Below are positions 3,972 through 16,955 of a stretch of 25,875 bases of DNA, in pieces. Source of the stretch: a virus. The DNA lies in IMG/VR virus record IMGVR_UViG_3300023284_000139, positions 1 through 25,875 of that record. One strand, written 5' to 3'. Position numbers and translations under genes: made by a program. The notes beneath the pieces are model-generated. The model was given only the letters and a program-made list of their open reading frames with translations, was not told the origin of the DNA and searched no databases. Every line of letters begins with the position of its first letter. Position 1 is the first letter of the stretch.

Positions 3972-4144
3972 GCCCGATCGCAATCGCCGCAGTATTGGAG
4001 TTTCATTTTTTATGGAACCCGAACACAGACGGTACCTACGCAAAGAATCCGGAAGCCATTCGGCAGTGCAGAGCAGCAGGTTTAATTGACCCCCTACGGA
4101 GCGCGTGTTACTGGTTTTACGTACGCGCTTACCCCTCTTGGTAA
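3968..4144 (+). CDS. 5' part of a phage helix-rich gene, probably frameshifted
   Basis: Begins MSPIAIAAVLEFHF and reads a family-like pattern to AAGLID at 4089, after which the frame becomes implausible and stops at 4142-4144. The continuation of the family pattern (YGARVTGFTYALTPLGKEFVEQL) is found in the +1 frame of the next ORF. The switch falls on a run of five C at 4090-4094. With four C, both parts read as one protein of about 165 residues. Known phage relatives of this type have an N-terminal helix, a variable loop and a LT..G..fve.L ending. Confidence 0.55.
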   Translation: MSPIAIAAVLEFHFLWNPNTDGTYAKNPEAIRQCRAAGLIDPLRSACYWFYVRAYPSW

Positions 4145-4700: not shown

Positions 4701-5135
4701 ATGAAGAGAGTGTTTTTAGTGTTAACAATGTTGCTTTTGTCCTTAAACGCATTTGGACAAATAGACCCGCCTTTCGAGGAAATTCTTCTTGAAATCGAAA
4801 CATCGAATGTGTTTCTTGAGCAGATAGAAGAGAATACAGAAAGGCCGCTTAAGGTGGTGTTTAAATACGGAAGTTGTTTTATTCTTTTGTCCACTCAAAC
4901 TACAGGATACTTGGACTATCAAATTCGCACTTCCACCACGGACATAAGACTGACTAACCCGCTTGGAACTTTTGTTATTGGGGTTATACCAGGAACGGAT
5001 AAAGACAATGCTCGGGAATTTCTCATAGCTGTTTTTAACGATCGTAACGGAACAGAGTTTGTTCTAGCAGATGCTCCTGTTGTTAACACCTCGCCTAATT
5101 GCGGAGAGTTTAACGTATTGGCTTTGGGCCTCTAG
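4701..5135 (+). CDS. Secreted or periplasmic protein with signal peptide (144 aa)
   Basis: The ATG at 4701 has AAAGGAG upstream and opens a textbook Sec signal: MKR, then a hydrophobic core VFLVLTMLLLSL, then NAFG before QIDPP as likely cleavage site. The in-frame extension upstream to 4581 overlaps the previous gene and lacks a ribosome site. The mature part is beta-rich with two cysteines, around residues 58 and 134, which could form a disulfide in the periplasm. Function unknown; an envelope or superinfection role is only a guess. Confidence 0.75.
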   Translation: MKRVFLVLTMLLLSLNAFGQIDPPFEEILLEIETSNVFLEQIEENTERPLKVVFKYGSCFILLSTQTTGYLDYQIRTSTTDIRLTNPLGTFVIGVIPGTDKDNAREFLIAVFNDRNGTEFVLADAPVVNTSPNCGEFNVLALGL

Positions 5136-5140
5136 CTAAG

Positions 5141-5353
5141 GTGAAACACATGCTCGACTTTCTTATTAACCTTTGTCCTTTTATGTCATTGGAGAGAGGA
5201 GGTCGAGCAACTAATTCAGAACTGCGTCGATGGTTTGATCGAGGCAGTGTATATGTAAACGGACAACCGGTTGATTGGAACGCTCCTGTGCCGGAGAAAT
5301 GGATCAGCTTAGTGTTGCACCCGCGATCGAAAAAGAGATGCACATTATGGTAA
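5141..5353 (+). CDS. S4-like small phage protein (70 aa)
   Basis: The central part, ATNSELRRWFDRGSVYVNGQPV followed by a P..W.SLVLHPRSKK end, matches a small S4-fold-like phage protein pattern (a helix with ..SElRRW, then a v.iNG turn, then a beta strand). S4 domains bind structured RNA, so RNA binding is the natural hypothesis; no experimental function is known to me. Start is GTG 5141 (TAAGGTG context) or ATG 5150. Confidence 0.65.
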   Translation: MKHMLDFLINLCPFMSLERGGRATNSELRRWFDRGSVYVNGQPVDWNAPVPEKWISLVLHPRSKKRCTLW

Positions 5354-6867: not shown

Positions 6868-6871
6868 TTAG

Positions 6872-6900
6872 TTGACACACTATTCTTAATGTGTCAAACT
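6872..6900 (+). promoter_or_regulatory. Promoter-like site coincident with an inverted repeat
   Basis: TTGACA at 6872-6877 is a perfect -35; 17 bases further is CAAACT (6895-6900), a weak -10. The same stretch is an inverted repeat, TTGACACA (6872-6879) and TGTGTCAA (6890-6897), with a ten-base gap. A dimeric regulator bound there would cover the promoter. No U-run follows, so it is not an intrinsic terminator. Confidence 0.45.
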
Positions 6901-7240
6901 AAGGGTTCTCAAGGAGAAATAATCTAAGCTCAAACCGAGCAAAGAAGACCACCATGAGACAAGACTGGTAAAAGCAGTCAAATCGAGCAGAGAAGGCTTC
7001 GAACGACCACGCGCCTATTACAGTTCACACATCGGGCTTCCCGGTCACTGTCTGGAAAAGCTGGAAACCGTAGCATGTAGCTGAAGGACTGAGGGCAGAG
7101 CGATCGATCTGCAAGAAGGGCCGTAAACCCTAAAATCCCGGCAGCACCGGGTGCGATAAAGGGCTCTTGTAACAGCGACAGCATCGTATGGATGCTGCGT
7201 GATGCTGGTACATAAGAGCAAGGAGAAAAATTCAAAGTGC
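6901..7240 (+). ncRNA. Candidate structured noncoding RNA or long structured leader
   Basis: The stretch has no supported ORF. It is dense in hairpins: GCTC/GAGC (6928-6940), GACTG/CAGTC (6963-6979), CGGG/CCCG (7033-7043), GCAGA/TCTGC (7095-7112), AGGG/CCCT (7117-7131), CCCGG/CCGGG (7137-7151) and CAGCATC/GATGCTG (7179-7197). The last sits inside an outer helix of GCTCTT (7163-7168) with AAGAGC (7214-7219), extended by GTA/TAC and CAGC/GCTG. A 17-base direct repeat (CAAAYCGAGCARAGAAG) occurs at 6931 and 6979. No intrinsic terminator follows. It could be an independent RNA or a 5' leader of the membrane-protein/rtcB cluster. No known family was recognised. Confidence 0.45.
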
Positions 7241-7277
7241 ATCAGGTTCAGATATCACAAATAGTGTTGAACAAGCG

Positions 7278-7895: not shown

Positions 7896-7926
7896 AGCAT
7901 CCGTTCTCAAAAGGAGAACAAAGTAA
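7741..7926 (+). CDS. Hypothetical 61-aa protein upstream of rtcB
   Basis: ATG 7741 has GGAGA eight bases upstream; the frame is open further left but looks like a shadow there. The product (ends SEASVLKRRTK) is a helical, charged protein with WWTDRGYSPDD in the middle. It ends in a TAATG overlap with rtcB, which supports this frame as coding. It may be the true C-terminus of the ORF at 7572 if a +1 shift lies near 7770. Confidence 0.55.
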   Translation: MISKPKMFGQNERLQTAKANLDARIAIGTKWWTDRGYSPDDADVKFRIAQSEASVLKRRTK

Positions 7927-9143
7927 TGCCTATTCAAGAAGTAATACGCGGCGTCGGCGACAAAGGCATTGCTAAGGTCTGGACGACAGACATCGAAGAC
8001 TCTGCACGAAAGCAGGTTGAGAATATCGCTTCTTTGCCGTTCATTCACAAACACATTGCGATAATGCCTGATGTACATTGGGGATACGGTGCCACGATTG
8101 GTTCTGTTATACCAACTAAAGGTGCGATCATTCCGTCTGCGGTTGGTGTTGACATCGGTTGCGGTATGATGGCTGTGCAAACCACACTTACTGCCACCGA
8201 TATGCCAGACAATTTACTCAGCCTACGCAATCGAATCGAACGTGTCGTGCCTCATGGCTTCGTTACCGTCCAAGGTCGTAGCGTTAAAGGTTCATGGGAA
8301 GTCGCTCCGCAGTCGGTGTGCTCTCGCTGGGCTCCTCTCGAACAACGCTTTAACGCCATTGTTGAGAAGTTCCCGAACCTTGCCCGCAAGAATGCTTTGT
8401 CGCAGATGGGAACGCTCGGCGGTGGTAATCATTTTGTTGAGGTTTGCCTGGACGAAGAGGACACCGTCTGGGTTATGCTGCATTCCGGTTCACGCGGAAT
8501 CGGTAACATGATTGGTCAAATGTTCATCGAACTTGCACGTCAAGACATGCGACGGCATTTCATAAATTTGCCGGACAAAGACCTTGCGTATTTCCCGGAA
8601 GGCACGGAGCACTTTAATGACTATTGGAACGCAATGCAGTGGGCTCAGGAGTATGCCTTCGAGAATCGCCAAGCGATGATGGATAACGTGCTGCGAGTCA
8701 TGCGCGAAGAAGTTCCGAAATCGTTTGCGATGGGTAAGACCGCAGTCAACTGTCATCACAACTACGCCGAGATGGAGAACCATTATGGTGCCAACGTCTA
8801 TATTACACGAAAGGGCGCTGTCCGAGCACGAATCGGAGACCTCGGAATTATCCCAGGATCAATGGGAGCACGTTCTTTCATCGTCGAAGGACTCGGCAAC
8901 AAAGAATCGTTCAACTCCTGTTCGCATGGTGCAGGTCGCACGATGTCCAGGACGGAGGCTAAGAGGAGATTCACGGTTACGGACTTGGCTAAACAAACAA
9001 GCGGCGTTGAGTGCCGAAAAGACAAAGACGTGATCGATGAGATTCCGTCCGCGTATAAGGACATAGATGAGGTAATGGAGTTTCAAAATGATCTCGTCAG
9101 ACCGCTTCACACCCTCAAGCAAATTTTGTGTGTCAAAGGATGA
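7926..9143 (+). CDS. rtcB: RtcB-type RNA 3'-phosphate ligase
   Basis: A full-length RtcB of 405 residues; the E. coli enzyme has 408. RtcB joins RNA 2',3'-cyclic phosphate or 3'-phosphate ends to 5'-OH ends using GTP and Mn2+. All signature motifs are visible: DVHWGYG (49-55), VDIGCGM with the metal-binding D76/C79 region, GGGNHF (165-170), HSGSRG (186-191), NCHHNYAE (275-282) and CSHGAGR with the guanylated histidine H334. It starts in a TAATG overlap. In a phage it could repair tRNAs cut by host anticodon nucleases or process phage RNAs. A tRNA and structured noncoding stretches occur in this same window. Confidence 0.95.
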   Translation: MPIQEVIRGVGDKGIAKVWTTDIEDSARKQVENIASLPFIHKHIAIMPDVHWGYGATIGSVIPTKGAIIPSAVGVDIGCGMMAVQTTLTATDMPDNLLSLRNRIERVVPHGFVTVQGRSVKGSWEVAPQSVCSRWAPLEQRFNAIVEKFPNLARKNALSQMGTLGGGNHFVEVCLDEEDTVWVMLHSGSRGIGNMIGQMFIELARQDMRRHFINLPDKDLAYFPEGTEHFNDYWNAMQWAQEYAFENRQAMMDNVLRVMREEVPKSFAMGKTAVNCHHNYAEMENHYGANVYITRKGAVRARIGDLGIIPGSMGARSFIVEGLGNKESFNSCSHGAGRTMSRTEAKRRFTVTDLAKQTSGVECRKDKDVIDEIPSAYKDIDEVMEFQNDLVRPLHTLKQILCVKG

Positions 9144-13629: not shown

Positions 13630-13816
13630 TAACTCAATGCAGGATTATGAGATCGCCTCTAGAAACCCTATATCTGGCGAGCCCGAAGAAATGTGTCGAA
13701 GCTGTATCAACCTAAGTTCAAGTTACAGCGATGGCTTAGGACCGCAGGTTGAGATAATGATGGACGTACCTTTATTGGATTTGTTACCTAATGGACCTAA
13801 GTCGATGGATAATTAG
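13610..13816 (+). CDS. Zinc-ribbon miniprotein (68 aa)
   Basis: AAGGAGG precedes the ATG. CKAC at residues 3-6 and CRSC at residues 29-32 form a CxxC-x22-CxxC zinc ribbon; an acidic and hydrophobic tail follows. Small zinc ribbons of this kind in phages often touch nucleic acid or RNA polymerase, but nothing here is specific. Last gene before the strong promoter at 13820. Confidence 0.7.
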   Translation: MRCKACNNSMQDYEIASRNPISGEPEEMCRSCINLSSSYSDGLGPQVEIMMDVPLLDLLPNGPKSMDN

Positions 13817-13819
13817 GGC

Positions 13820-13848
13820 TTGACATAATCCTGCCGATGTTTTATAAT
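13820..13848 (+). promoter_or_regulatory. Perfect consensus sigma70-type promoter upstream of the tRNA
   Basis: TTGACA (13820-13825), a 17-base spacer and TATAAT (13843-13848) match the consensus exactly, with a start near 13855. It lies four bases after the preceding stop codon. It would transcribe two tiny ORFs, tRNA-Pro and the structured region up to the terminator at 14511. Confidence 0.85.
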
Positions 13849-13873
13849 GAAGGGGAAGGTTGAGGAGATATCT

Positions 13874-13924
13874 ATGACCTTTGAATATATGGGTTATAGC
13901 CCGTCCCGTCGCCAAGAGACTTAA
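13874..13924 (+). CDS. Possible leader peptide (16 aa)
   Basis: A GAGGAG ribosome site lies before the ATG. The product MTFEYMGYSPSRRQET ends in a TAATG overlap with a second mini-ORF. Position, size and ribosome site suggest a leader ORF at the 5' end of the tRNA transcript. Confidence 0.4.
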   Translation: MTFEYMGYSPSRRQET

Positions 13925-14004
13925 TGCTAAGGGCTCTCGAATTAAAGGACAGCATGATGAAAACTACAGATAACATATCTCCAACCGAAGCTGACCCCAG
14001 ATAA
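13924..14004 (+). CDS. Possible mini-ORF (26 aa) ending directly at the tRNA
   Basis: Begins at the TAATG overlap (MLRALELKDSMMKTT) or at the internal ATG 13954, which follows AAAGGA. Its stop codon occupies 14002-14004 and the mature tRNA begins at 14005. Translation up to the stop would keep the RNA just before the tRNA unfolded. Confidence 0.4.
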   Translation: MLRALELKDSMMKTTDNISPTEADPR

Positions 14005-14081
14005 CTGGGCGTAGCTCAGCTTGGTAGAGTCCTGGCCCTGGAAGCCGGTTGTCGCAGGTTCGATTCCTGCCGTCCAGACCA
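14005..14081 (+). tRNA. tRNA-Pro (anticodon UGG)
   Basis: A 77-base cloverleaf. The acceptor CTGGGCG pairs with CGTCCAG (one G-U). The D arm is GCTC/GAGT with loop AGCTTGGTA. The anticodon stem is CTGGC/GCCGG with loop CCTGGAA, and the T arm is GCAGG/CCTGC with loop TTCGATT. Then come discriminator A and an encoded CCA. C1-G72 with A73 and the UGG anticodon are the hallmarks of bacterial proline tRNAs. Odd point: base 33, almost always U, is C here. A phage tRNA of this kind would supply CCN proline codons. Confidence 0.9.
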
Positions 14082-14510
14082 AATCATCCCCGGAGTTTTC
14101 TAGCTTCGGCCAACCAGTCTTCAAGAGGGCTGGGCTCTGATTACCGACAAAACGCGAGAGCGACAAACTGGTAGTCTAAAAAGTTCCTGGCGACTCTCGT
14201 ACAGCCGAGGAATACCGAAAAGGTAAGGTCGAGTCGTTCGTTCCTACTAACGTAAAGTAGCCTGGGCCGGTCACTACATCACCGCTTGATTAAGTTGCGA
14301 GAAAGGTGTAAGGATTTAACGGATTGACCAGGAAGAATTCAGTCCGCGAAGATCGACGGGCGTATACAAAAATATTGATCGCCATAGCAGAGAGTATCTG
14401 GTGTAAAGTTTAAAGGCGGACGTGTAGCGAGTCCGAAAGGATGTCCGCCCTTGCCCTCGGCAACGAGACCGGTCGTACCGGTTATAAAGAGCATTCGCAG
14501 AGAGAGAGGG
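14082..14510 (+). ncRNA. Candidate large structured noncoding RNA downstream of the tRNA
   Basis: No ORF in this stretch has a ribosome site or plausible product. It contains ACCAGT (14113) with ACTGGT (14167), CGC-GAGA-GCG (14153-14162, GNRA loop) and CTACT/AGTAG (14244-14260). A long hairpin at 14415-14449 (GGCGGAC/GTCCGCC) encloses a GTCC-GAAA-GGAT tetraloop stem. TTGCC-CTC-GGCAA (14451-14463) and ACCGGT-CGT-ACCGGT (14468-14482) follow, then an intrinsic terminator. Being cotranscribed with a tRNA in a phage is the typical setting of large ornate RNAs such as GOLLD and ROOL, but I cannot match it to either by sequence. Confidence 0.55.
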
Positions 14511-14543
14511 AAGCCGCTTCATTCGTGTTGCGGCTTTTCTTTT
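14511..14543 (+). terminator. Intrinsic terminator
   Basis: AAGCCGC (14511-14517), a 12-base loop, GCGGCTT (14530-14536) and TTCTTTT. It ends the tRNA and structured-RNA transcription unit. Terminase genes downstream would need readthrough or a promoter I could not identify. Confidence 0.8.
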
Positions 14544-14668
14544 GATCGTACGATTTAACATAATCTGGGATTGATGATCGGAGGATAGTCAGTCGCGGAA
14601 ACCGAGCATGGTCTGGCCCGCCTATGGGCTATCTCCTCCTCGCCCTGCTCAGGGGCAACCTGGATGTC

Positions 14669-14703
14669 GGAGCCTCTTCTTGGGGCTCCCATCCTTTTCT
14701 TTT
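14669..14703 (+). promoter_or_regulatory. Terminator-like hairpin in the terS leader
   Basis: GGAGCC (14669-14674) and GGCTCC (14684-14689) form a stem followed by CATCCTTTTCTTTT, ending eleven bases before the terS start. It could attenuate transcription into the terminase genes or hide the ribosome site. The preceding 14544-14668 holds two more short GC-rich inverted repeats (GCCC/GGGC), and is also a possible location for the packaging site. Confidence 0.45.
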
Positions 14704-14713
14704 AGAGGAAGAG

Positions 14714-15457
14714 ATGGACGATTTAGACCAAGGCTTATTTGACGACGGCATGATCGTAGAGGCAGCGGATGTAATTCCCGTACCTCCGGTTGTGGGCGTA
14801 GTTCATGGTGGAGATTCTTACGGAGATACCAGTCGTCTAACGATCCACGATTCAAATGATATAGAGCCAAGTCAGTCTCTGGTCACCCCTCCTGAACTTT
14901 ATGATCGCGTTACAGCAAAGGTCGCTCCAGACGGAAGCCCTTTAACACCGAACCAAATAGCGAGCCCTCATCTGTGGCGAGCGGGTGATCCGCGTCAGCC
15001 AGGTAGCGGCAAAAAAGCAAAGAAAGCCAACCGTATTAACGTGCGTGAATTGGTTAGTAAACTCTCTTGTGACACGATGCTTGATCCTATTGAAGTTCTG
15101 TTCTACATTATGAATGCGAACGAAGAATCTAGACATCATCTTGGACTTCGTAAATCTGATCGTATTTCTGCCAACCTACGAGCGAAATGCGCTCAAGAAC
15201 TATTGACGTACATGGCACCCAAGCTGAAGTCAATAGAAGTCAAGACGGATGATGGTCTCGGAGAGAAAGGAACAGGTATCCAGATTTTCTTACCGAAGAA
15301 TGAACGAGAGCACGGTGCTGTTGCTGAACAGCCGGAACTTGTTTTACCTACTAAGGATGGAGTTTCTATTCCATTTTCTCCAGAGATAGCAGCCCAATTG
15401 ATATTGAATATCGAGTCCGAAGACGATGAGAACTTACCGGATTGGGCGGACGTTTAA
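14714..15457 (+). CDS. terS: Terminase small subunit (probable)
   Basis: The product, 247 residues from ATG 14714 (AGAGGAAG ribosome site; an earlier ATG at 14624 lacks one), lies directly before the large subunit with a TAATG overlap. It has an acidic disordered N-terminus, then a PGSGKKAKKANRINVREL basic segment, and helices containing CDTMLDPIEVLFYIM and RAKCAQELLTYMAPKLKSIE. The latter resemble small-terminase-like regions found in phages with DUF935 portals. Small terminases recognise the packaging site as rings. The assignment rests on the position and on these helices. Confidence 0.7.
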   Translation: MDDLDQGLFDDGMIVEAADVIPVPPVVGVVHGGDSYGDTSRLTIHDSNDIEPSQSLVTPPELYDRVTAKVAPDGSPLTPNQIASPHLWRAGDPRQPGSGKKAKKANRINVRELVSKLSCDTMLDPIEVLFYIMNANEESRHHLGLRKSDRISANLRAKCAQELLTYMAPKLKSIEVKTDDGLGEKGTGIQIFLPKNEREHGAVAEQPELVLPTKDGVSIPFSPEIAAQLILNIESEDDENLPDWADV

Positions 15458-16926: not shown

Positions 16927-16955
16927 TTGACATTATGTTAACTTTCAACGATAAT
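16927..16955 (+). promoter_or_regulatory. Sigma70-type promoter for the head genes
   Basis: TTGACA (16927-16932), a 17-base spacer and GATAAT (16950-16955), with a start near 16962. It lies in the 67-base gap between terL and the portal gene, just before the ribosome site TTGAGGAGAG. Confidence 0.75.

Follow-up and report, generated by a model that had tools for sequence, protein, structure and literature searches.

An uncultivated phage carries a candidate noncoding transcription unit in which a promoter at 13820-13848 is followed by a conserved leader, a tRNA-Pro and an RNA of 462 nt that ends in an intrinsic terminator. When the tRNA is processed, by RNase P at its 5′ end and at the encoded CCA at its 3′ end, a tRNA 3′ trailer with its 5′ end at approximately 14082 would be freed, and the terminator hairpin at the trailer's 3′ end would protect it. 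The last ~135 nt of this trailer, comprising three hairpins and the terminator, appear to be maintained by selection as an RNA structure. Because this 3′ domain seems to be under selection, the reading that we consider the likeliest, and hold with middling confidence, is that the trailer is a stable trans-acting phage RNA made in infection, serving as a base-pairing partner, a sponge or a protein-binding RNA, and is not waste; promoter use, processing, stability and trans action are what we infer. Few small, tractable examples are available among the GOLLD/ROOL-like phage RNAs found beside tRNAs, and a conserved domain of ~135 nt with its terminator, which a consensus promoter would produce along with a tRNA, would provide a simple system to test.

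Genomic setting and lineage

The window, by which we mean the whole stretch of DNA analyzed here, is the 25,875-base virus record IMGVR_UViG_3300023284_000139, in which no end repeats were detected. It carries tailed-phage genes, all on the + strand, for an RtcB-like ligase, a helicase, a topoisomerase, a large terminase, a portal, head morphogenesis and major head proteins, and the tRNA and the gene-free stretch behind it sit between the early/metabolic block and the packaging genes. The window's longest interval free of + strand ORFs of at least 60 aa is 13817-14623, and minus-strand and short ORFs in this region gave no convincing PHROG match. The second-longest internal interval of this kind measures 410 nt and is located at 6868-7277. 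The RtcB-like RNA ligase (7926-9143; PHROG tRNA splicing ligase) is encoded in the same genome as the single tRNA and may serve tRNA repair.

Three records of the lineage were found, namely the window, L002 and L003 (L003 and L015 being one contig), with TerL identities to the window of 81% for L002 and 74% for L003. The L002 contig starts inside the RNA, and sequence further 5′ is absent from it. In a TerL profile scan the next relatives were ~50% identical and carried nothing alignable to the RNA region, a helicase query returned no further lineage member, and a profile search of genome contigs yielded one distant terminase only.

Promoter, leader and tRNA

The strong promoter that lies closest upstream of tRNA and RNA is a + strand sigma70 promoter (TTGACA-17-TATAAT, 12/12 consensus positions) at 13820-13848, and its -35 and -10 positions are present in L003 too. 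A promoter scan found no other good site from there to the tRNA, and none between the tRNA and the RNA. Judging from the sequence, a single transcript from this promoter would run from the leader through the tRNA and the RNA to the terminator. An earlier reading of the sequence alone had placed the RNA in the transcription unit of the tRNA; the two do appear to belong together, and the unit probably starts earlier, at this promoter. Further strong sigma70-like promoters on the + strand were seen at 227-255 and 16927-16955 (12/12 and 11/12 matches, respectively), the first preceding an ORF-poor stretch and the second the portal gene.

Between 40 and 95 nt after the promoter lies a leader segment that we call element A (13888-13942, + strand), which matches L003 at 3989-4043 with 94.5% identity over 55 nt, as compared with 37% at TerL four-fold degenerate sites in the same pair. 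Element A shows no extra folding stability (z 0.1 and 0.5) and matches no Rfam family, and an exact pattern scan of viral contigs with it found L003 only. The leader is separated from the tRNA by a putative short + strand ORF of 14 codons plus stop (13960-14004; reading MKTTDNISPTEADPR), in the place of which L003 has a 140-aa ORF.

The tRNA-Pro(TGG) is on the + strand at 14005-14081, with its CCA encoded and its end at 14081. Its anticodon loop (14037-14043) reads CCUGGAA, giving C33 and A37. Position 33 is normally U, and position 37 is normally G in bacterial tRNA-Pro; a tRNA-Pro with C33 and A37 may be inefficient in decoding or serve some other purpose. The counterpart tRNA in L003 is Ile, as opposed to Pro in the window.

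Anatomy and folding of the gene-free stretch

From the end of the tRNA to the terminator the gene-free stretch (14082-14543) measures 462 nt, or 689 nt from the presumed start when the leader and tRNA are included. The sequence-only reading had described some 430 gene-free bases after the tRNA, hairpins with GAGA and GAAA loops, and a clear terminator at the end, and these features are all present: none of the 462 nt falls in a + strand ORF of at least 60 aa, the two GNRA hairpins are CGC-GAGA-GCG at about 14153-14162 and GUCC-GAAA-GGAU at about 14431-14442, and the intrinsic terminator is a + strand hairpin GAAGCCGC...GCGGCTTTTCTTTT with a T-rich tail at about 14508-14545 (z -4.26). A simple terminator scan missed this terminator and listed another at 14669. 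The position of the terminator is common to all three records, although in L003 the stem is different.

As a whole, the 462 nt are more stable than shuffled sequences (z -3.48, with 0/100 shuffles as stable), while the antisense strand has no folding excess (z -0.18). When all 200-nt + strand segments across the window were scanned, 14401-14600 had the lowest score (z -5.67), whereas 14101-14300 (z -0.61) and 14201-14400 (z +0.08) were ordinary. Separate z values for successive segments were -1.8 for 14082-14175, -0.3 for 14176-14405 and -2.2 for 14406-14500. The 5′ part of the stretch (14082-14409, 328 nt, + strand) contains several local hairpins at 14090-14175; within the collections searched it lacks a homologue, it shows no clear excess of folding stability, and a blastn search with 14082-14760 against 50,697 phage records returned nothing beyond five chance matches (25 bases, E 8). 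Thus, the earlier proposal of a new structured RNA after the tRNA is supported for the 3′ ~135 bases, while "large" is unproven, the 5′ ~330 bases having neither a homologue nor a folding excess.

Alternatively, only the terminator and the adjacent hairpins may matter, in which case 14082-14409 would be filler or a remnant of replaced sequence. The near-zero z and missing homologue of 14176-14405 fit this idea, as does the shorter and unrelated segment that L003 has in this place. However, 14082-14500, from which the terminator is left out, folds better than 99/100 shuffles, there are local hairpins at 14090-14175 (z -1.8), and non-homology in a fast-changing RNA does not prove lack of function. 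We regard filler as unlikely.

A conserved and structured 3′ domain

The best evidence for a trailer RNA with a function of its own comes from the conserved 3′ domain (14410-14504, + strand), which consists of a 7-bp stem (14415-14449) with the inner GAAA hairpin, a CUCG-GCAA-CGAG hairpin and an ACCGGU-CGU-ACCGGU hairpin. L002 matches the window from 14410 through the terminator and slightly past it, with 85.7% identity over 133 columns for domain plus terminator and 83.0% over 94 ungapped columns for the domain without it. At four-fold degenerate sites the same two records are only 41% (TerL) and 35% (TerS) identical, which is near saturation. The first 16 bases of L002 are unlike the window upstream of 14410, and are too short to fix the boundary of the domain.

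All 36 predicted pairs are kept in both sequences (72/72 cells paired), and changes are concentrated outside the stems: 5/72 paired columns changed as compared with 23/71 unpaired ones (Fisher P 1e-4), or 4/46 versus 18/54 when the terminator was left out (P 0.003). Four pairs differ between the window and L002, one by a compensatory change (G-C to A-U) and three by one-sided changes that preserve pairing. A single compensatory pair was matched in 234/500 shuffles, which is compatible with chance and, with two sequences, too little to claim covariation; the covariation check put forward by the sequence-only reading thus applies to the 3′ domain, in two sequences, and shows retained pairing there. 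We also considered a small protein gene as the reason for conservation. The domain is not coding, however, because stops and indels of 1-2 bases, which are not the same in the window and L002, interrupt every frame and leave none open in both.

Because of this conservation against saturated four-fold sites, the kept pairs and the lack of coding capacity, we consider that there is good evidence, from comparison of the sequences, for 14410-14545 being a selected RNA structure. When viral contigs were scanned for exact patterns taken from the 3′ domain, only L002 was returned, and a covariance model of the domain, run against six records, found nothing else convincing. One hit, at L009 6590 (E 0.003), was rejected as it rests on few stems with most of the domain deleted; another, at L003 4654-4763, had pairs broken and a score of 7.4 bits (E 3.4), and was likewise discarded. 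What speaks against the trailer RNA is that the 3′ domain is represented by two sequences only, together with the plain character of the 328 nt 5′ of it and the unalignable segment that L003 has in this place. A cis role would explain the same conservation of the 3′ domain, as considered below for a late-operon leader.

The region around the tRNA in the relatives

In L003 the order of promoter, element A, ORF, tRNA, structured stretch and terminator is kept. Only ~206 bases follow the tRNA there, and they are unalignable with the window, yet this segment folds well (z -3.2 with the terminator and -1.9 without it). For this reason the place after the tRNA can be said to hold structured RNA in all three records, and a different RNA in some of them. 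Directly behind the terminator, ATTTAACATAAT is found in 3/3 records (window 14553-14564, L002 ~158-169, L003 ~4847-4858); it may be a promoter element, with a clear -35 box absent.

Small ORFs flank the tRNA-RNA-terminator module in L003 (4058-4480 and 4906-5127) and in L002 (215-424) and are missing from the window. The two from L003 were scanned against Pfam and had no match. The sequence gives this region the appearance of a hot spot where small genes are gained and lost.

These observations raise the broader idea of a new tRNA-linked phage RNA family, in which the promoter-leader and the terminator region would stay fixed while the tRNA and a fast-changing structured RNA between them are exchanged as a cassette, and the whole 462 nt would act as one folded RNA in infection. 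We find this doubtful.

Element C and a possible late-gene leader

A further conserved segment, element C (14612-14716; L002 ~430-541, L003 ~5156-5253), lies directly before the start of the small terminase gene at 14714. It consists of two hairpins, an invariant CUCAGGGGCAACCUGGAUGUCGG, a C-rich segment and a second intrinsic terminator (14669-14705), and the C-rich segment is predicted to pair with the Shine-Dalgarno sequence of the terminase gene, fully in 2/3 records. Across the three records 97.7% of cells are paired and five pairs changed on both sides, a result reached by 2/500 shuffles; on these alignments, the covariation evidence for element C is better than that for any part of the tRNA-linked RNA. 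Element C is absent from Rfam (E ≤ 10), and an exact pattern scan of viral contigs with it returned only L002 and L003. It could be an attenuator or translation switch, or could overlap a packaging site. Taken together, elements A and C suggest a lineage in which the packaging operon is under the control of RNA structures.

This brings us to the main rival of the trailer RNA, which is a cis-acting late-operon leader composed of the promoter, element A, the first terminator (14508-14545) and element C with the second terminator, followed by the terminase, portal and capsid genes, with the tRNA and the RNA merely riding along. Read-through by means of an antitermination factor or an element of the nascent RNA would turn on the late genes, as with lambda pR′-6S RNA-tR′ or the HK022 put RNA. 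The layout found here is that of such a leader, in that two conserved terminators come after a strong promoter and before the packaging genes. The leader's two ends are also where conservation is best, in elements A and C, A being nearly invariant and close behind the promoter. However, a second strong promoter-like site (16927-16955) lies before the portal gene, and no antitermination protein was recognized among the ORFs scanned, which are part of those in a record that is itself a fragment. The put RNAs are ~70 nt long with two stem-loops, and putL lies directly after its promoter (PMC9378689); unlike that double stem-loop, element A shows no folding excess. A late-operon leader is thus a possibility that we entertain tentatively, and we continue to favor the trailer RNA.

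Comparison with known RNA families and systems

The structured 3′ RNA matches no known Rfam family. At gathering cut-offs the tRNA was the only convincing match, and apart from the tRNA a cmscan of both strands of 13800-14760 at E ≤ 10 gave just two chance matches, both scoring far under their gathering cut-offs. Group I and group II introns and HEARO had no Rfam match at E ≤ 10, so that the match to a known intron which might have overturned the sequence-only reading did not occur. A self-splicing intron, or another known family diverged past recognition, would account for the presence of hairpins and nothing more; the tRNA is complete, no split gene flanks the stretch, and we consider such an origin extremely improbable.

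The same reading had likened the RNA to GOLLD and ROOL while recognizing it as neither. Indeed, the GOLLD model (RF02032) gave no hit at E ≤ 10 in this stretch or elsewhere in the record, in a scan that was run without a GOLLD-bearing positive control, and ROOL (RF03087) had none in the record at E ≤ 10, the control genomes likewise being without a match. What is shared is the setting, since GOLLD and ROOL occur beside phage tRNAs (PMC12286853), and membership in either family is not supported. A giant, ornate, multimerizing RNA of this type that forms a new family would agree with the tRNA-side location, with the GNRA loops, and with a 3′ part more conserved than the remainder, as in GOLLD (PMC12286853). 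On the other hand, the stretch is shorter than GOLLD, its middle part is not over-stable and its L003 counterpart is just ~206 nt, making this explanation very unlikely in our opinion.

The RNA thus resembles GOLLD as a phage noncoding RNA adjoining a tRNA, with a conserved 3′ and a less conserved 5′ part, but many GOLLD members exceed 800 nt, as compared with 462 nt here (689 nt with leader and tRNA), and the ornate structure and multimers are features of GOLLD, whereas the present RNA is known from sequence alone. ROOL is also a phage RNA near tRNAs; its 574-position model was unmatched, and the counterpart in L003 is only ~206 nt. ROOL has an elaborate covarying structure with pseudoknots; in the 3′ 135 nt, the part of the present RNA that has a homologue, simple hairpins are seen. 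The lambda pR′-6S RNA-tR′ and HK022 put regions share with the window a strong promoter, a short conserved leader, one or more terminators and late genes, but differ in that a tRNA lies inside the region here, no Q- or N-like protein was recognized, and element A lacks put-like stability. For the trailer RNA that we favor, a bacterial comparison can be drawn. In Escherichia coli, 3′ETS-leuZ is a tRNA 3′ external transcribed spacer that acts as an sRNA sponge. Like it, the phage RNA runs from the 3′ end of a tRNA to an intrinsic terminator and would be released by processing; unlike it, the phage RNA is far longer and carries a structured, conserved domain.
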